From Anaerolineales bacterium (GTDB taxonomy: Bacteria > Chloroflexota > Anaerolineae > Anaerolineales > Villigracilaceae), in the NCBI GenBank assembly GCA_016934715.1, contig JAFGSI010000039.1:1-64000 (forward strand): DNA of 64,000 nucleotides. The letters are read 5' to 3'. The translations under genes and the position numbers were made by a program. Under the pieces are notes generated by a model. It was not told the DNA's origin, did no database searches, and worked only from the letters and a program-made list of their open reading frames with translations. Every line of letters starts with the position of its first letter. The first letter of the stretch is position 1. This document shows positions 39,313 to 47,814 of the stretch, one piece after another.

Positions 39313-40830
39313 ATGCGTCTCGATGCCCTCTGGGCCCTGGTCCTGGTTTTCCTGCTGACTGCCTGCGTACGGCCGGCACCGGAGGCGCCGCCCTATGCGC
39401 CTGGGGGCGGCGGCAGCCTGCCGTCCGATTTCGACGATGGGACCCCGACGCCGTCCTTCCGCCTGCCACCGACGCATATCCCCGGGGCGGCCATCCTGAC
39501 ACCGACGCCTGATTTCCCGCATTATCCGCTGGCCACTCGCGATGGGCCCTTGACCTACACGGTCCGTTCGGGCGACACGCTCGGCGGGATCGCGGCGCGC
39601 TACAGTGTCAGCCTGGAGGCCCTTCAGGAGGCCAACGATCTTGACAACCCCAATTCGCTCGAGATCGGGCAATCGCTGACAATTCCGGTGCCCACCCCGC
39701 AGGCGATCGGGCCGTCATTCAAGATCATCCCCGATTCCGAGCTGGTCTATGGTCCGATGAGCATCCTGCTTGACCTGGAAGATTATATCGCTGACCGCAG
39801 CGGTTACCTCGCTTCGTATAGCCAGGATGTATCCGGTGAAATGCTGACCGGGGCCGCGATCGTCCAGCGCGTTGCCGAGAACTACTCGGTCAACCCGCGC
39901 CTGCTCCTGGCGCTGATCGAATTCCGTTCGGGGTGGGTGACCAAACCCAATCCCGACCCGGTCACCTGGGCCGACCCGCTGGGCCTGGGCGCCAGCAGCC
40001 CCGGGCTGTACCTTCAGCTGGCCTGGGCGGCCAATGAGCTCAACGCTGGCTATTACCTTTGGCGGGCCGAAGCGATTGACACTCTGATCCTGGCAGATGG
40101 CAACGTCGTCCCGATCGCGCCCAACATCAATGCCGGGACGGCCGGCGTTCAGCGCCTGTTTGCCCGCCTGGATACCTATCCTGCTTGGCTGCGGGATGTC
40201 TCTGCAGACGGCTTTTTTTACACGTATAACGCCTTGTTTGGATATCCTTTCGACCTGGCCATCGAGCCGATTGTCCCGCTGGCCCTTGTCCAGCCAGAGA
40301 TGAGTCTGCCGTTCAGCGAGGGCGAGACCTGGTCCTTCACCGGCGGCCCGCACGGCGGTTGGGATACTGGCTCGGCCTGGGCTGCTTTGGATTTCGCTCC
40401 GCCCGGGGAGGGCCAGGGCTGCCTGGAAAGCGACTACTGGGTGACTGCGGTCGCCGATGGCCTGATCCTGCGCGCTGGTGACGGGGCGGTCATCCAGGAT
40501 CTGGACGGCGACGGCTACGAGCAGACGGGCTGGGTGGTGCTCTACATGCACATCGAGATGCGCGATCGGGTCTTGCCGGGGACGTTCGTGCGCGCTGGGG
40601 AACGCATCGGGCATCCATCCTGCGAGGGCGGCGTGTCCAATGGCACCCATCTTCACCTGGCCCGCCGTTTCAACGGAGAATGGATCTCCGCCGATGACGC
40701 GGTGCCTTTCAACCTCGACGGCTGGATATCCAGCGGGGCCGGAGTGGAATATGATGGTTACCTGACCCGTGACGGGTTTGTTCTTGAGGCCTTTGACGGC
40801 CTCGATCCGATCAACCAGGTGCATCGTTAA
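39313..40830 (+). CDS. LysM-M23 lipoprotein, paralogue 1
   Basis: The 505-residue protein has a lipoprotein signal (lipobox LTAC at about residue 18) and a Thr/Pro linker. A LysM domain follows at about 78-122 (YTVRSGDTLGGIAARYSVSL), then a middle domain with NYSVNPRLLLALIEFRSGW. An M23 domain forms the C-terminal part (GGPHGGWDTGSAWAALDFAP, LYMHIEMRD, NGTHLHLARRFNG). It is anchored outside the membrane and probably binds and remodels peptidoglycan. It is the first of three tandem paralogues. Confidence 0.85.
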   Translation: MRLDALWALVLVFLLTACVRPAPEAPPYAPGGGGSLPSDFDDGTPTPSFRLPPTHIPGAAILTPTPDFPHYPLATRDGPLTYTVRSGDTLGGIAARYSVSLEALQEANDLDNPNSLEIGQSLTIPVPTPQAIGPSFKIIPDSELVYGPMSILLDLEDYIADRSGYLASYSQDVSGEMLTGAAIVQRVAENYSVNPRLLLALIEFRSGWVTKPNPDPVTWADPLGLGASSPGLYLQLAWAANELNAGYYLWRAEAIDTLILADGNVVPIAPNINAGTAGVQRLFARLDTYPAWLRDVSADGFFYTYNALFGYPFDLAIEPIVPLALVQPEMSLPFSEGETWSFTGGPHGGWDTGSAWAALDFAPPGEGQGCLESDYWVTAVADGLILRAGDGAVIQDLDGDGYEQTGWVVLYMHIEMRDRVLPGTFVRAGERIGHPSCEGGVSNGTHLHLARRFNGEWISADDAVPFNLDGWISSGAGVEYDGYLTRDGFVLEAFDGLDPINQVHR

Positions 40831-40837
40831 AGGTCGA

Positions 40838-42379
40838 ATGAGAAAAATCTTCTTGACCCTGTTGCTCGGACTCCTGCTGACTTCCTGTGAAAGTAACCTG
40901 TGGGGTTCCTACGATGATTTGACACCGACCGCATCGCCGGATGTCTTTGTGACCGTGGACCAGGGTGTGACCCCCACCTGGACGCCTTTCCTGCCCTACG
41001 AGACACCGACCCCGGCGCCGACTGCCACGCCCATTCCGATCGGCCCGACCGATACTGCCTATCCGCCGGTGCTGTATTATGCCCAGTCGGGAGACTGCCT
41101 GCAGGTGGTGGCGGCCCACTTCAATGTCGCCCCGGCTGAAATCTCATCCTCCGCGTCTTTACCTGAGATGGCCCTGATCGACCCCGAAACGCCTCTGCTC
41201 ATCCCCGACCGGCTACGAGGTCTGCCGCTGACGCCGGCCGAACACATGCTGCCTGACAGCGAGATCGTCTATTCCCCGACCGCCCTGTCCTTCGATGTGG
41301 GCGCCTACGTCTCCAGCCGTCATGGCTACCTGAGCACGTACCGCGAGTACCTGCTCAGTGTTGGCTGGGTCAATGGAGCCGAAGCAGTACAGAAATCAGC
41401 GATCGAAAACTCGATCAACCCGCGCCTGCTCCTGGCCCTGATCGAATACAAGAGCGGCTGGGTGCGCGGTCAACCGGAAAACCTGGCCCAGACCGATTAC
41501 CCTCTTGGCAGAGTGGACATCCAGTATCGCGGCCTGTTCCGACAGATGATGTGGACGACCATGCAGTTATCGATTGGCTACTACGGCTGGCGGGGAGGCA
41601 CGTTGACAGACCTCACCTTTCCGGATGGCACCACCCTGCGGCTTGCCCCTGACCTGAATGCCGGGACCGTGGCCCTGATGTACTACTTTTCCCTGCAATA
41701 CAATTACACGGATTGGCTCCAGGTGATTGACCCGCGGGTCGGTTTCCCGGCCTTGTATGAAGAACTGTTCGGCGACCCGTGGATCTTTTCCGATATGATC
41801 GGGCCGCTCTTCCCGCCTGCCCTGACCCAGCCCGAGATGTCCCTGCCCTTCGAGCCAGGCCGGGTATGGAGTTTCAGCGGCGGGCCGCACCCGGCCTGGG
41901 AGATGCAGGGTGCGCTGGCGGCAATCGATTTTGCACCCGCCTCGGCCGAACCGGGCTGTTTGGAGTCGGACGCCTGGATTATCAGTTCGATCCCAGGCCT
42001 TGTCGTCCGCTCTGCGGGAGGGGCGGTCGTCCTCGACCTGGACGGTGATGGCCATGAACAGACCGGCTGGAATCTACTCTTCCTGCATGTTGCCGCTCGT
42101 GACCGGGTTCCATTGGGGACCTGGGTCGAGGCGGAGGGACGCATTGGGCACCCATCCTGTGAGGGCGGGGTTGCCACCGGGACACACGTCCATTTTGCTC
42201 GTAAGTATAATGGCGAATGGGTGCTGGCCGATGGCCCGTTGCCTTTCACGCTGAGCGGCTGGGTGGTGCACAATGGAAGCGGGCTTTATCTGGGTACCCT
42301 GACGCGCGGCGATGAGGTCGTTATCGCCCGGACGAACGGTATCTTTGACACTCAGATCATCCGCCAGCCGGGCGAGTGA
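40838..42379 (+). CDS. LysM-M23 lipoprotein, paralogue 2
   Basis: Starting at the ATG at 40838, 7 bases after paralogue 1, the 513-residue protein repeats the same plan. It has a lipobox (LLTSC), a Thr/Pro linker, a LysM-like domain (YYAQSGDCLQVVAAHFNV), the middle domain (NSINPRLLLALIEYKSGW) and the M23 part (GGPHPAWEMQGALAAIDFAP, LLFLHVAARD, TGTHVHFARKYNG). The LysM is divergent, with a cysteine in place of the usual Thr of SGDT. Its neighbours share ancestry by tandem duplication. Confidence 0.83.
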   Translation: MRKIFLTLLLGLLLTSCESNLWGSYDDLTPTASPDVFVTVDQGVTPTWTPFLPYETPTPAPTATPIPIGPTDTAYPPVLYYAQSGDCLQVVAAHFNVAPAEISSSASLPEMALIDPETPLLIPDRLRGLPLTPAEHMLPDSEIVYSPTALSFDVGAYVSSRHGYLSTYREYLLSVGWVNGAEAVQKSAIENSINPRLLLALIEYKSGWVRGQPENLAQTDYPLGRVDIQYRGLFRQMMWTTMQLSIGYYGWRGGTLTDLTFPDGTTLRLAPDLNAGTVALMYYFSLQYNYTDWLQVIDPRVGFPALYEELFGDPWIFSDMIGPLFPPALTQPEMSLPFEPGRVWSFSGGPHPAWEMQGALAAIDFAPASAEPGCLESDAWIISSIPGLVVRSAGGAVVLDLDGDGHEQTGWNLLFLHVAARDRVPLGTWVEAEGRIGHPSCEGGVATGTHVHFARKYNGEWVLADGPLPFTLSGWVVHNGSGLYLGTLTRGDEVVIARTNGIFDTQIIRQPGE

Positions 42380-42385
42380 GCGAAC

Positions 42386-43873
42386 GTGAACACCCCTGGG
42401 GCGAGAATGAATTGGACGGGCCGGCCGGGACTGCCGCTCCTGCTGGCGACTGTGCTCCTGCTGACAGCCTGTCTGCCGGCGGTCTCTGCTGCCGAAATGA
42501 CCCCGGCTGGCCTCCTGACCGAACAGGCCGGCGGCCCGACCGCGACCCCGTTACCGGAGCGTCCTTTATATGATCCTGGCGAATTGGTCGCATACCGCGC
42601 CCAGACCGGCGATACCCTGCCGTCGCTGGCTGCCCGCTTCAACACCACGATCGCAGAGATCAGGACGGCCAATCCGCAAATCCCGCTCGATGCCTCCACC
42701 ATGCCGCCTGGAATGCCGATGCAGATCCCGATCTACTATCTGCCTCTCTGGGGGACCCCCTTCCAGATCCTTCCGGACAACCTGTTCGTCAATGGTCCTT
42801 CGGCGCAGGCGTTCAACACGGAATCTTTCGTGGCGACCCATTCCGGCTGGCTGAAAGATTATTCTACTTACGCAGCCGGCGCCAACCGCAGCGGTGCCCA
42901 GGTGGTCGATGTGGTCGCCTTAAACTACAGTATCGACCCGCGCCTGCTGCTGGCCATCCTCGAATACCAGACCGGAGCCCTCTCGCGCCCCGATGCCCCC
43001 GATACAATCTATGCCCTTGGCTTTCGCGAGTACAGCCGCAGCGGCATCTACCTGCAACTGACCTGGGCGGCAAACCTGCTCAACAACGGTTACTATGGCT
43101 GGCGGACAGGACTGCAGACCTCCTTCGAGCGCCCCAACGGGTCGCTCGAACGGCCGGACCCCTGGCAGAATGCCGCTTCGGTGGGTGTGCAGTACTATTA
43201 TTCGCGCCTTTACTCAGGGGTGGAATACGATACTGCGGTCGGGCCTCAGGGCCTGGCGCGAACCTACCATACGCTTTTCGGCGATCCCTGGACAGTCAAC
43301 GCTCCGCACATCCCGGTCAGCCTGCAGCAGCCCGACCTGCGTTTCCCATTCCGGGCGGGCGAGAGTTGGGCCTATACCGGCGGGCCGCACACCGGCTGGG
43401 GCCAGGGCGAACCATATGCTGCGATCGACTTCGCCCCCCCCAACGTGGTCGGCGGTTGTGCGCCCACCGACCGGCTGGCGGTCGCGGTGGCCGATGGGGT
43501 TGTCGCCCGCTCAGAGATCGGGATCGTGGTCCTCGATCTGGATGGCGATGGCGACGAACGCACTGGATGGGTGATCTTCTATCTGCACCTGGCTAACGTC
43601 GGACGGGCTCCCCTGGGAGCCGTCCTGCGAGCCGGTGACCCGGTCGGTTATCCGTCCTGCGAGCGCGGCACCTCGACCGGGACCCATATCCATATCGCCC
43701 GCCGCTTCAACGGCGAATGGATCCCGGCGGATGGAGCGATCCCGTTCAACCTGGAGGGCTGGGTCGCCCACAATGGCAATGCCGCCTATTCCGGCACGCT
43801 GACCCGCGGCGAGCAGACCGTGATCGCCTGCCAATGCGCCGACGCAGCCAGCCAGGTCAGGTCGGAGCGCTAG
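42386..43873 (+). CDS. LysM-M23 lipoprotein, paralogue 3
   Basis: The frame opens with GTG at 42386; an ATG at 42407 is an alternative and gives a more compact lipoprotein signal (MNWTGRPGLPLLLATVLLLTAC is the segment around it, cut at the Cys). LysM (YRAQTGDTLPSLAARFNT), middle domain (NYSIDPRLLLAILEYQTGA) and M23 motifs (GGPHTGWGQGEPYAAIDFAP, FYLHLANVG, TGTHIHIARRFNG) follow in order. It closes the three-gene cluster. A hairpin terminator lies 29 bases after the stop. Confidence 0.83.
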   Translation: MNTPGARMNWTGRPGLPLLLATVLLLTACLPAVSAAEMTPAGLLTEQAGGPTATPLPERPLYDPGELVAYRAQTGDTLPSLAARFNTTIAEIRTANPQIPLDASTMPPGMPMQIPIYYLPLWGTPFQILPDNLFVNGPSAQAFNTESFVATHSGWLKDYSTYAAGANRSGAQVVDVVALNYSIDPRLLLAILEYQTGALSRPDAPDTIYALGFREYSRSGIYLQLTWAANLLNNGYYGWRTGLQTSFERPNGSLERPDPWQNAASVGVQYYYSRLYSGVEYDTAVGPQGLARTYHTLFGDPWTVNAPHIPVSLQQPDLRFPFRAGESWAYTGGPHTGWGQGEPYAAIDFAPPNVVGGCAPTDRLAVAVADGVVARSEIGIVVLDLDGDGDERTGWVIFYLHLANVGRAPLGAVLRAGDPVGYPSCERGTSTGTHIHIARRFNGEWIPADGAIPFNLEGWVAHNGNAAYSGTLTRGEQTVIACQCADAASQVRSER

Positions 43874-43948: not shown

Positions 43949-44431
43949 TTAGGCCTGGGCCGGTTGGTAAATCTTTTCCTTGAGCAGCTGCCGGCTGCCG
44001 TCGTCCTGGTCTGCGTAGATCTGGTAGCGCAACTCCATCGGGAAGGCCTTTCCCAGCATGGCCTGGGCAGGGCAGTAGCGCACGCTGGAGAGTTCGATGG
44101 CGCGGAGCAGCGCGGCCTCGTCAATGCCCTGGCCGGTCACGGCATAGGTGATTACGGCCCGGGTGAAGACCTTGGGATGTTCTGCCGCCCGGTCGACCGC
44201 CAGGTGCACCTCGAAGGCGGTCACGGCCTGGCGTTTCTTCTGCAGGATCGAGACCACATCCATGGCGGTGCAGCCAGCCAGGCTGATGGCCAGCAGTTCC
44301 AGAGGGCGGAAACCGTCGTTTGCGCCGCCGACCGCCGGGTCCGCGCCGAGCGGGACAATGAATCCACTCTCGGCCTGGCCATCGAAGGACAGCCCTTGTT
44401 TCCAGGTTACTTTTGTTTCCACAGGGGTCAC
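43949..44431 (-). CDS. OsmC-family peroxidase-like protein
   Basis: The 160-residue protein has the OsmC/Ohr fold with the two redox cysteines in SLAGCTAMDV and VRYCPAQAML, and the RPLELLAISLAG helix. Such proteins reduce organic hydroperoxides with dithiol partners. The GTG at 44431 overlaps the TlpA stop (GTGA), which supports it; a second GTG four codons later (44419) is better spaced from GAGAGG. It is last in the sigma-factor operon. Confidence 0.85.
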   Translation of the reverse strand: MTPVETKVTWKQGLSFDGQAESGFIVPLGADPAVGGANDGFRPLELLAISLAGCTAMDVVSILQKKRQAVTAFEVHLAVDRAAEHPKVFTRAVITYAVTGQGIDEAALLRAIELSSVRYCPAQAMLGKAFPMELRYQIYADQDDGSRQLLKEKIYQPAQA

Positions 44432-44991
44432 CTCTCTAACAACGGGGTTACGTAGCGTTCCAGCACGGTACGGTTGATCGGCCCGGTCCAGGTCAGGCGG
44501 ACGGTGCCCTCCCGGTCGATGACGTAGGAGTTGGGCAGGTTGGGATTCTGGAAGGCCACCAGCGCGTCCATTGCCGGGTCGAGCCAGACGGGGAAGGTCA
44601 ACTGGTACTGGCCGACGAAGGCGCGTACGTCAGCCTCCGTTTCACCGGCATCGATGGCCACCACCACGAAACCTTCTTCGGCGTGAGCCTCATAGTATGC
44701 CAGAAGGTCGGGCATCTCGGCCCGGCAGGGCGGGCACCAGGTGGCCCAGTTGTTGACCAAGACCACCAGGCCGCGGTAGTCGCTCAGCGCGACCGGGTCC
44801 CCCTGCAGGTTGAATAGGGTCAGGTCCGGGGCGGGGTAGGTGGCTGCTGCGGGAACCATCGAGCGATCCCTGCTCGCGAGAGCCTCTTCGCGAGCCACTG
44901 TCAGCGGGACGATGACCGCCGCGCCGAGCAGGAAGACCCCGATGGCGATCCCGACCAGGAAGGCGCTGCTGCGCTTCGCGGCTGCTGGCAT
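44428..44991 (-). CDS. TlpA-like membrane-anchored thioredoxin
   Basis: A membrane helix (about residues 10-32) precedes a TlpA/ResA thioredoxin domain with active site WATWCPPCRAEMP and cis-proline region NLPNSYVIDREG. It is 187 residues long and faces outward, where it reduces or exchanges disulfides. It starts 6 bases after the selenocysteine oxidoreductase stop and overlaps OsmC, so all three are one transcript. Confidence 0.88.
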   Translation of the reverse strand: MPAAAKRSSAFLVGIAIGVFLLGAAVIVPLTVAREEALASRDRSMVPAAATYPAPDLTLFNLQGDPVALSDYRGLVVLVNNWATWCPPCRAEMPDLLAYYEAHAEEGFVVVAIDAGETEADVRAFVGQYQLTFPVWLDPAMDALVAFQNPNLPNSYVIDREGTVRLTWTGPINRTVLERYVTPLLER

Positions 44992-44997
44992 GGATGC

Positions 44998-45660
44998 TTA
45001 TCCAAGAGCGCGCTGGATCTCGGCCAGCAGGTTGGCCTCGGGCACGGCCCCCACGACATTGGCCTGGCCATCATTGATCGTGGTATGCGGCACGCCATGG
45101 ACCCCGTGCCTGTCGGCCAGTTTGGGAAACTCGGTCGCCTCGACCATCTCCGCTTTGATGAGCGGGTTTTCCATTGCCATCCTGTGAGCGAGCACCACGG
45201 CCCGCGGACAGTATGGTCAGGTGGGGGTGACGAAGACCTGCATGTGGACGGGATCTTTAAGCCCTCGCAGGAACTCGCGCGTCTGTGGGCTGAGGCCCGA
45301 GTCGCGGTTCGAGACGAGCACCAGGCTCTGGATGAGCGAACTGAACTCATGTCCGGCGGGGATGCCAGCAAAGTGTACGCCCAGGTCGGTGGTCACCTCG
45401 CCGTCCCGGGCAGCCAGGATCAGGGTGGGAACCTTGTCAACCTTGAATCTTGATGCGCTTTCGGCATCCGCCTGCAGATCGTAGACGGTCAGGTTGAGTT
45501 TTTCCGACAGGCTGGCAAGCTCCTCTGCCAGGTGGCGGGTATCGGCGCAGTAAGTACACTTCTCTTCGGAACCGAAGAAGATGATCTCTACCGGATCCTT
45601 GAGCTCGGCGAACAGGTCGCTGACCTGTTTTTTGATCTCGGCATTCAGCAATTCAGGCAT
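44998..45660 (-). CDS. Selenocysteine protein disulfide oxidoreductase (glutaredoxin-like, in-frame UGA)
   Basis: The reading frame continues through a UGA at 45219-45217. The joined 220-residue product has two thioredoxin folds: the first with C35-T-Y-C38 (EEKCTYCADT) and cis-Pro KVPTLIL, the second with U148-P-Y-C151 (VTPTUPYCPRAV) and cis-Pro GVPHTTIN. The family (archaeal/thermophilic PDO) normally has CPYC there, so UGA replaces the nucleophilic cysteine. It should act as a high-activity reductase. AAGGAG precedes the ATG at 45660. Confidence 0.88.
45188..45219 (-). promoter_or_regulatory. SECIS-like hairpin after the oxidoreductase UGA
   Basis: After the UGA and 11 bases, GCGGGC (45205-45200) and GCUCGC (45193-45188) form a 6-bp stem closing the loop CGUGGU. 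Distance from UGA to loop is 17 bases, and a G lies in the first two loop positions, as expected for bacterial SECIS elements. Confidence 0.7.
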
Positions 45661-45708: not shown

Positions 45709-45903
45709 TCAGGTACAGCCGGCCCCGCCGCTGTTGCGGTAGCCACAGATCAGGCATTCCAGTTCGAGCAGCCCGTTGTAATCCAGTTTGGTCTGTCCGC
45801 AATCGGGACAGGGGTCGCCTGGGCGCAGCGGGCGCAGGTTGCAGAGCGGAGATCCAGAGAGCGCTTCGGGGGCATAGCAGGGAAGCAGGCCTTTTTCGTC
45901 CAT
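45709..45903 (-). CDS. Small zinc-ribbon protein
   Basis: The 64-residue protein carries CPDCGQTKLD and CLICGYRNSGGAGC, two CxxC pairs that make a zinc ribbon, plus further cysteines (LLPCYAPEA, LCNLRP). It lies between the anti-sigma gene and the selenoprotein on the same strand. The function is unknown; regulation or metal/thiol buffering is possible. The frame ends TGT-ACC-TGA-TAA. No clear ribosome-binding site is seen. Confidence 0.6.
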   Translation of the reverse strand: MDEKGLLPCYAPEALSGSPLCNLRPLRPGDPCPDCGQTKLDYNGLLELECLICGYRNSGGAGCT

Positions 45904-45978
45904 CACTGCTTGGATGCTGACAGGGGGGAAAAGTGGCAGCCAGTTGGGACAGAAGCGACCTGCACCGGTTCAGGCAGA

Positions 45979-46233
45979 TCAGCCTGGGTAGTCTTCCAGG
46001 TTGAGGGTCCGGAAGAGGCGCTCACGCACCCCGGCAGGGACGTCGGCCGGGGCGGCCGTCTGGTGGTAGAGGGAAATGGTCTTGCGCAGGGTGTCGACCA
46101 CAATGCGGCAATTCTGGCACTCGCTCATGTGGCGTTCGATCTCCAGGCAGAGCTGGTCGCCGAGGGACCCGTCCACGTAATCGGACAGGGAACCAAGCAG
46201 GTCGCGGCAGTCGGTGTGGTCGTGTTCAGTCAT
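45979..46233 (-). CDS. Zinc-binding (ZAS-type) soluble anti-sigma factor
   Basis: Starting at 46233, the 84-residue protein (MTEHDHTDCRDLL...) has the ZAS motif HMSECQNC (H-x3-C-x2-C) at about residues 35-42 and another cysteine at residue 9. It has no membrane helix, so it is a cytoplasmic anti-sigma factor of the RsrA/ChrR type. Zinc release by thiol oxidation would free the sigma factor. Its ATG lies 8 bases inside the sigma gene end. Confidence 0.85.
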   Translation of the reverse strand: MTEHDHTDCRDLLGSLSDYVDGSLGDQLCLEIERHMSECQNCRIVVDTLRKTISLYHQTAAPADVPAGVRERLFRTLNLEDYPG

Positions 46234-46837
46234 TTTCCAGGCTCCTGACCTTGAGGCGCTTTCCATAATAGGTGCTCAGGATCTCGCGCAGGCGCAGGCG
46301 GGCGCGCAGCAGGCGGGTCTTGACCGCGGTCTCGCTCAGATCGAGGGCCTGGCTGGTCTCCTGGATCGAAAGCCCTTCGATGTCGCGCAGCAGGAAGACG
46401 ATCCGCAGTTTTTCGGGCAGGTGTCTGATCGCCTGGTCGAGATGGGCACGCGCCTCGTCGGAGAGCAGTTCCTCTTCCGGCAGGCAGCACCAGTCGGCGA
46501 ACTGGGCCGGGGCTTCGAGCGGTTCTTCGTCGTCCGGGACGGTGTCGCTGATGGACACCTCCGGGCGCTGCCGGCGCATCAGCATCAGGGCCTCGTTGGC
46601 GGCGATGCGGTAGAGCCAGGTCGAGAGGCTCGAACGGCCCTCGAATCCGCCGATGTGCTGGAGGGCCTTCAGAAAGGTGTTCTGCAGCACGTCTTCGGCG
46701 TCCTGCGGGTTGCCGAGCATCTTGAGCGCCAGACGGTAGATGGCCGGGGAGTGACTGTCCACCAAGCGGGTGAACTCGTGCCTATCGCCGGCGTGCAGGG
46801 CTTCGAGCGAGATCGGTGCGTTGGTCGTTTCAGTCAT
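46226..46837 (-). CDS. ECF sigma factor
   Basis: The 203-residue protein has region 2 (FTRLVDSHSPAIYRLALKMLGNPQDAEDVLQNTFLKAL, in two segments of under 20 residues each side of GNPQDAEDVLQ) and region 4 (LPEKLRIVFLLRDIEGLSIQETSQALDL...KTRLLRARLRLRE). It is the first gene of the operon and overlaps its anti-sigma factor. The set of downstream genes (zinc ribbon, PDO, TlpA, OsmC) points to thiol or peroxide stress. The ATG at 46837 is chosen from the conserved length; the ribosome-binding site GAAGAGG is 12 bases away, rather far. Confidence 0.92.
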   Translation of the reverse strand: MTETTNAPISLEALHAGDRHEFTRLVDSHSPAIYRLALKMLGNPQDAEDVLQNTFLKALQHIGGFEGRSSLSTWLYRIAANEALMLMRRQRPEVSISDTVPDDEEPLEAPAQFADWCCLPEEELLSDEARAHLDQAIRHLPEKLRIVFLLRDIEGLSIQETSQALDLSETAVKTRLLRARLRLREILSTYYGKRLKVRSLEND

Positions 46838-47077
46838 TAGATGACGGCCTCTTCGGGAAAGTTGCATTGGGATAGAGGGCCTGCTGACACCGTCCATGCC
46901 TGGAGGCAGGGGTTTTACGGCGAATCCCGGTAAGTATACACGATTCGAAGGCCTCCGGCTGGAATCTGCACAATGGGTTGGCGTGGGTAAGAAGTGACAA
47001 ATGGACTGGACGAATGTCCGCCCGGTCATGATGTTTGCCACTAGAAAAGTCGGTTCGCTTTGACTAATATCTATCCA
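46838..47077. other. Divergent intergenic region of the sigma operon and the cyclic-nucleotide gene
   Basis: This 240-base stretch must hold promoters for two divergent transcripts. A partial palindrome TGCCTGGAGGCA lies near 46908-46919, and a GGAC...GTCC repeat near 47003-47020. No sigma-70 promoter at correct spacing, and no convincing ECF-type -35 motif, could be picked out. No gene is seen in it. Confidence 0.4.
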
Positions 47078-47557
47078 ATGATGTTGCGTAAGATCACCCA
47101 GCTTGCCTTTTTTCGTGGCCTGGAGGCGGAGGAGATTGCTCTGCTCGAGCCTTATTTTCGTTCGCAGACATTCCTCTCCGGAACAACCGTCTTCGAACAG
47201 GGCGCGCAGACCGAATTCCTCTATCTGGTTGTGCGCGGCGAGGTGGTGATCCAGTTCAAGCCCGAAGACGGACCGCAGATGATCGTCACGCGTGTCCAGC
47301 CCGGGGGTGTGTTCGGCTGGTCGGCGGCGGTAGGCAACGGCACCTATACATCGGGCGCGGTCTGCGTCCGCGACAGTGTGGTGCTGCAGGTGCGCGGCTC
47401 CGATCTGCGCCTGATCTGCGATCTGCATCCCGAGGTGGGGAAGATCATCCTGGATCGCCTGGCTGAAGTGATCGCTGAACGCAAGCACAGCCAGCAGCAG
47501 TTGACCGAGTTCCTGGCCCAGAGCATCCGCCATGGATCCGGTTGCACTGAAAGCTAA
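47078..47557 (+). CDS. Cyclic-nucleotide-binding domain protein without HTH
   Basis: The 159-residue protein is one CAP-type effector domain (FFRGLEAEEIALLEPYFR, GTTVFEQGAQTEFLYLVVRGEVVIQF, GGVFGWSAAVG) ending in a long helix. The DNA-binding helix-turn-helix of Crp/Fnr proteins is absent. The ATG pair at 47078/47081 is preferred over TTG at 47060. No ribosome-binding site is visible. It precedes a NifU-domain gene by 11 bases. Confidence 0.8.
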   Translation: MMLRKITQLAFFRGLEAEEIALLEPYFRSQTFLSGTTVFEQGAQTEFLYLVVRGEVVIQFKPEDGPQMIVTRVQPGGVFGWSAAVGNGTYTSGAVCVRDSVVLQVRGSDLRLICDLHPEVGKIILDRLAEVIAERKHSQQQLTEFLAQSIRHGSGCTES

Positions 47558-47568
47558 GGGAGGTTCGT

Positions 47569-47814
47569 ATGCCAACCGATCCGAAAACCGAACTACAGAT
47601 GAAAGCCCTGGTCGAGCAGTTAAGCGCCTACATTGAGACGTTCCACGGCGGCTCGGTCGACTATGTCGACTTCGATGGCAGGGTGCTCAAGGTCCGCCTG
47701 GGCGGTGCCTGCCTGGGCTGCCCGCTGTCTCCGAGCACCCTGCACGGCTGGGTGGAGGGGACTGTGCGCCAATTCTTCCCTGACATCCAGGACGTGGTGG
47801 CGGTAGAAGAGTAA
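47569..47814 (+). CDS. NifU-like C-terminal domain protein (Fe-S scaffold)
   Basis: The 81 residues are a single NifU C-terminal domain: HGGSVDYVDFDGRVLKVRLGGACLGCPLS with the CxxC that binds a cluster, then TLHGWVEGTVRQFFP. Such proteins carry or deliver [4Fe-4S] clusters. AGGGAGG precedes the ATG. It shares a transcript with the cyclic-nucleotide-binding protein. Confidence 0.9.
   Translation: MPTDPKTELQMKALVEQLSAYIETFHGGSVDYVDFDGRVLKVRLGGACLGCPLSPSTLHGWVEGTVRQFFPDIQDVVAVEE

Follow-up and report, generated by a model that had tools for sequence, protein, structure and literature searches.

A stretch of 64,000 nucleotides from an Anaerolineales genome (hereafter the window) holds a gene for a protein disulfide oxidoreductase (PDO) in which a UGA codon stands at the second active site, and the question raised by this locus is whether that codon is read as selenocysteine (Sec). 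The gene occupies 44998..45660 on the minus strand. Read from 45660 down to 44998, it runs for 220 codons, is interrupted once, by an in-frame TGA at codon 148 (45219-45217), and closes with TAA. A preliminary description of this DNA had given these coordinates correctly, leaving the strand unstated, and was also right that UGA alone interrupts the frame; the plus-strand reading of 44998-45660 is an unrelated frame and was rejected. The translation around the UGA is VTPTUPYCPRAV. Under the standard code the gene stops at residue 147 and the catalytic half is lost. Judging from the sequence comparisons given below, the gene most probably encodes a genuine selenoprotein, a two-domain PDO in which the C-terminal CPYC has turned into UPYC, and we place the probability of this reading at roughly 95%.

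Against the NCBIfam model TIGR02187 ('PDO_seleno_TRX, protein disulfide oxidoreductase') the predicted protein scores 276.7 bits, over a cut-off of 185, residues 7-217 aligning with model positions 2-208 of 209, which bears out the complete two-fold PDO proposed earlier. Because the part preceding the UGA scores only 158.2 bits by itself, under the cut-off, the second half belongs to the PDO protein. Both thioredoxin units have a CxxC-type site, CTYC at residues 35-38 and UPYC at residues 148-151, and site 1 is kept as CxxC in 53 of the 54 TGA-form proteins described below. The TGA-form PDO at locus L068 has QETC aligned at site 1, leaving the Sec site alone intact. The closest solved structures are 1A8L (E 5e-41), 1J08, 2HLS, 2YWM and 2AYT, which are named PDO or glutaredoxin-like protein. 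The likeness to 1A8L, which we take to be the PDO of Pyrococcus furiosus, extends over the full length; its first site is CQYC as against CTYC, its second site is CPYC, and its Cys146 aligns with the predicted Sec148 (45217..45219, minus strand). The UGA is thereby found at the N-terminal Cys of CPYC, as had been claimed. The N-terminal domain of AhpF is a distant homologue (TIGR03140, 91.9 bits; 1HYU, E 6e-11), yet identity with AhpF is ruled out, the score being far below the cut-off of 502.9 and the 220-aa protein having no fused flavoprotein reductase. The window gene is the single PDO match above the TIGR02187 cut-off in the genome.

Termination competes with Sec insertion at UGA-Sec codons, and the UGA might mainly terminate translation, giving a one-domain protein of 147 residues, with Sec insertion acting as a selenium-dependent switch. 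The short product would still hold the first domain with its CTYC. This competition fits such regulated truncation, but nothing seen here points to selection for the truncated product, Cys stands at the same position in many close relatives, which are not truncated, and the Sec and Cys members of the family lie in the same genetic context. We consider it unlikely.

As the preliminary description had suggested, relatives were inspected for Cys or Sec at residue 148. Of 152 relatives found, 80 were kept, and in these codon 148 is TGC in 44, TGT in 19 and TGA in 17. Together with loci from an order-level search the pool came to 171 rows, of which 24 were repeats of identical proteins and were merged, leaving 147 distinct proteins with the window included. 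Codon 148 is TGC in 69 of them, TGT in 24 and TGA in 54, with TAA or TAG in none, and no further in-frame stop occurs in the aligned stretch of any of the 147. All 93 relatives that lack TGA have Cys at this residue. The order-level sample consisted of 301 genomes, 119 of them with a PDO above the cut-off. Since loci were read from all of the TGA genomes above the cut-off (a partial match, G149, was left out) and from 46 of the 76 Cys genomes, the ratio of 54 to 93 is not a frequency; the frequency of the TGA form is 43 in 119, with TGA at codon 148 in all 43, and the Sec reading applies to these sampled PDO genomes of the order. Rows from the order sample were taken as Chloroflexota after the nearest named relatives of the window genome, the best of which are Anaerolineales/Chloroflexi records with identity of up to 72%; by these relatives the organism most likely belongs to Anaerolineales or to a neighbouring order of Chloroflexota.

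The view that Sec-containing PDOs are rare, expressed in the preliminary description, does not hold, given this frequency and a family that is already published, of which the window gene is a further member. Published Sec-PDOs, in the portions of the tables of PMC13188914 and PMC9312934 available to us, have the same family model and the same UxxC motif, a comparison made by description, ABB15282.1 included. The available parts of a 2006 survey (PMC1794560) place Sec-PDO in Carboxydothermus and Symbiobacterium, and count three selenoproteins in all for Chloroflexi with names not given. A TGA-containing 'Glutaredoxin-like' cluster with CHY_0740 appears in the accessible part of a 2007 stop-codon screen (PMC1914089), and four Asgard archaeal sequences of Sec-PDO appear in that of a 2024 paper (PMC11227280). 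The term 'Chloroflexi' is absent from the main text of PMC13188914, PMC9312934 and PMC11227280.

A maximum-likelihood tree of the 147 proteins was computed with the Sec/Cys residue masked. The best tree carries 22 changes between the Sec and Cys states, and 9 changes are forced by supported branches alone; this is a quick tree without bootstrap, with weak support at 58 of its 144 inner branches, and it does not distinguish gains from losses. Some of the changes fall between sister rows, and the sister rows of the window, L019 and L020, are of the Cys form.

The apical hairpin of a predicted bacterial SECIS, GCGGGC-CGUGGU-GCUCGC (45188..45205, minus strand), starts 11 nt past the UGA and has 6 bp and a 6-nt loop (45199-45194) whose second base is G. 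An outer extension of 4 bp, CUGU/ACAG, lies beyond a 2x2 internal loop (45182..45211, minus strand) and is complete in the window. The 6-bp hairpin and its distance from the UGA thus stand as first described. The loop G, which had been offered as part of the same evidence, is present and was rejected as a sign of a SECIS, being found in 54 of 54 TGA rows and equally in 93 of 93 Cys rows. Conservation of the outer stem with Sec was likewise rejected, its cells being paired in 52.4% of cases in TGA rows vs 50.8% in the Cys rows plus the window. Folded alone, the window hairpin has a z of -1.63 and is equalled or surpassed by 13 of 200 shuffles, so that it is mildly better than chance and not exceptional. 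It is more than chance because the relatives show codon exchange with the pairing kept where TGA is present. The complete set of six apical pairs is present in 40 of the 54 TGA rows and in 4 of the 93 with Cys (40 of 48 vs 4 of 72 among rows assigned to Chloroflexota), and apical cells are paired at 93.6% in the TGA rows vs 58.9% in the Cys alignment with the window row included.

Of the 14 TGA rows without all six apical pairs, 8 are Chloroflexota and 6 come from other phyla. Six TGA-form loci (L071, L072, L073, L080, L087 and L090), with titles naming Deltaproteobacteria, Acididesulfobacter or an unplaced bacterium, form a different hairpin, CCGCC-GGC-GGCGG, in the corresponding position, and because of these six other-phyla rows the shape of the SECIS seems to differ between lineages. 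One apical pair, formed by position 2 of codon 153 and position 3 of codon 157 (Leu), is G-C in 33, A-U in 8 and C-G in 3 of 52 distinct TGA rows and is unpaired in 8. Three measures of the TGA rows, namely the percentage of cells paired, the covariation score and the count of doubly changed cells, exceeded all 500 shuffles, while doubly changed pairs were as numerous in 482 of the shuffles and pair types in 477. Sliding the register by +1 gave 18 doubly changed cells vs 14 at the true register, and the covariation score of the Cys alignment was also above most shuffles (2 of 500 as high). The pair-count controls of hairpin covariation are therefore mixed. Because related rows are not independent, independent Sec/Cys pairs were taken on supported branches of the tree, which yielded 9 pairs. 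Averaged across 200 random pairings, the hairpin accompanied Sec in 8.1 of the 9, no difference was found in 0.9, and the reverse in 0.0 (sign test, median p 0.008, range 0.004-0.07).

Past the UGA, the coding sequence evolves under purifying selection. Identity to the nearest relative, L019, is 84% over residues 152-220 and 64% over residues 1-140. Codons 149-197 compared with L019 give a dN of 0.05 and a dS of 0.94, and five TGA-TGA pairs tried among the relatives give dN from 0 to 0.12 and dS from 0.37 to 0.99; codons 149-197 include the hairpin, which can lower dS. These data bear on the possibility that the locus is in truth a Cys gene, coding for CPYC or reduced to a truncated pseudogene, and that the TGA arose by nonsense mutation or by faulty sequencing or assembly. 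Such an event would need one base change from TGC or TGT, and both nearest relatives have TGC at codon 148; the protein of one of them, L020, is identical to that of G079, the sole other genome of the window genus in the order sample, which has Cys. It is nevertheless very improbable, given 53 further distinct relatives with TGA at precisely this codon and none with TAA or TAG, aligned stretches free of a second stop, a hairpin kept together with TGA, selection continuing past the stop, and the full Sec machinery of the genome.

That machinery, which the preliminary description had proposed to look for, is all in the genome assembly, which spans 4.09 Mb in 88 contigs at 97.76% completeness: a UCA-anticodon tRNA-Sec (70.1 bits), selA (527.2 bits), selB (357 bits) and selD (366.7 bits). 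The selD gene (L015 522-1847, minus strand, contig C14) has an in-frame TGA of its own, in a CAGU motif, and is likely to be a second selenoprotein, so that the genome probably makes at least two; folding of the selD UGA region gave no hairpin matching that of the PDO. A reading of the PDO codon as something other than Sec, either as Trp under a UGA-Trp code or by leaky readthrough, is highly improbable, for although the frame would be open under any UGA-reading code, it is Cys that is replaced throughout the non-TGA relatives, tRNA-Sec and selA, selB and selD are present, and TGA is the ordinary stop of 5 of the 17 window genes checked, including the neighbouring TlpA, anti-sigma and sigma genes.

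Within the order, a selA match was found in 42 of 44 TGA-PDO genomes (one partial PDO match counted), in 40 of them above the cut-off, and in 28 of 28 such genomes of good quality. The two without a match are both incomplete (88% and 80%). Cys-PDO genomes had a selA match of any kind in 63 of 76 cases and one above the cut-off in 57; among those of good quality the figure was 41 of 46 for any match. Across the order the Sec machinery is widespread with either form of the PDO, and because selA is frequent in Cys-PDO genomes too, that machinery is permissive rather than specific. Genomes that lack selA carry the Cys form, save for the two incomplete exceptions. As a mark of lost Sec machinery the Cys form holds weakly: counting matches above the cut-off, or fragments totalling at least 100 bits, selA is present in 42 of 44 TGA-PDO genomes vs 58 of 76 Cys-PDO genomes (Fisher p 0.0095, kinship ignored).

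The PDO gene lies in a cluster on the minus strand. In order of reading this consists of an ECF-type sigma factor (46226..46837, with Sigma70_r2 and r4_2 and a start ATG at 46837), a zf-HC2 (ZAS-type) anti-sigma factor (45979..46233, the longer ORF reaching 46266), a 65-aa small protein (45709..45906) with two CxxC pairs that is zinc-ribbon-like by eye and has no Pfam match, the PDO, a TlpA-like thioredoxin-fold protein (44428..44991; AhpC-TSA/Redoxin, with CPPC and an N-terminal membrane stretch by eye), and an OsmC-family protein as the last gene (43949..44431). Sigma70 regions 2 and 4 thus adjoin a zf-HC2 protein with HxxxCxxC, and anti-sigma residues C9, C29, H35, C39 and C42 do not vary across any of the 88 matching rows, the window included. 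Among Chloroflexota-assigned rows with at least 1.6 kb of upstream sequence, the sigma and anti-sigma genes precede the PDO in the same orientation in 35 of the 47 TGA rows and 43 of the 65 with Cys; another 4 rows of each form have them in the reverse orientation. A TlpA or OsmC gene follows the PDO, transcribed in the same direction, in 42 of 45 TGA rows and 61 of 68 Cys rows, again Chloroflexota-assigned. The seven neighbour proteins had no match in any of the 27 rows titled as other phyla, unplaced bacteria or archaea. A tie between the sigma/anti-sigma cluster and Sec itself was rejected, as Cys members have the cluster too. A cNMP-binding regulator (47060-47557, plus strand) and a NifU-like protein (47569-47814, plus strand) are divergent from the sigma gene and are also there in some relatives, and on the other side three long, similar-looking tandem ORFs, by eye LysM and peptidase-like lipoproteins, occupy 39313-43873 of the plus strand. 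Neither a sigma/anti-sigma cluster nor repeated Sec/Cys exchange in the PDO family was seen in the available portions of PMC1794560, PMC13188914, PMC9312934 and PMC11227280, and among the titles found in one open-access library, none describes a sigma/anti-sigma/PDO cluster.

Directly before the sigma start codon is an ECF-promoter-like element, GCAACTTT-N14-CATCTA (46838..46865, minus strand). A motif of this type occurs in 66 of 84 upstream regions, with a mean of 2.7 and a highest count of 7 in shuffles, for a pattern that is post hoc: a dyad count gave the lead, the first regular expressions matched 22, 1 and 1 of the 84, and the final one was chosen after inspection. The motif abuts the start codon, and the transcript is possibly leaderless. 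Two exact sites are present in the genome, one at the cluster and one before a small ORF; the latter copy (L201 1501-1528, equivalent to C66:35461-35488) lies shortly before an ORF at 1599-1988 that is membrane-protein-like by eye. A regulon search allowing one mismatch was dropped, and the cluster site alone was used, because a control pattern outnumbered the motif (15 matches against 6).

By analogy, the facts of the cluster fit a self-regulated thiol-stress cluster like SigR-RsrA. RsrA is described in the available part of PMC4960319 as the zinc anti-sigma factor of SigR in Streptomyces, answering disulfide stress. As in that system, the window pairs an ECF sigma gene with the gene of a zinc anti-sigma that has HxxxCxxC preceded by a further Cys, and genes for disulfide reduction lie alongside. 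The Cys-His spacing of the window anti-sigma presumably matches that of RsrA. The two differ in the gene cluster and in the extra invariant Cys29 of the window anti-sigma.

From what is known of the family, SelB acting on the hairpin just after the UGA would deliver Sec-tRNA, Sec148 would attack substrate disulfides, Cys151 would resolve them, and thioredoxin reductase, for which the genome has one TIGR01292 match above the cut-off, would recharge the PDO. We hypothesize further that thiol oxidation of the anti-sigma factor would free the sigma factor, that the freed sigma factor, acting at its own promoter, would induce the whole cluster with the PDO, and that reduction of cluster proteins, possibly of the anti-sigma factor itself, would then fall to the PDO. 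An ECF sigma/anti-sigma redox loop with feedback from the PDO is offered as a tentative and rather doubtful model. The whole proposal, in which the Sec-PDO would be an output of a self-regulated thiol-stress switch and would also reset it by reducing the oxidized anti-sigma factor, while Sec and Cys alternate repeatedly, is likewise possible and, on balance, somewhat improbable.

The Sec/Cys exchanges, several of which separate close relatives, in genomes that mostly keep selA provide a comparative set for asking how a disulfide oxidoreductase benefits from Sec. The conserved sigma/anti-sigma cluster also supplies a testable role for a selenoprotein family that is listed as predicted in the available portions of PMC13188914 and PMC9312934. 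If the proposed switch is true, the family would amount to a natural experiment on the reasons for using selenium in a redox-signalling loop.
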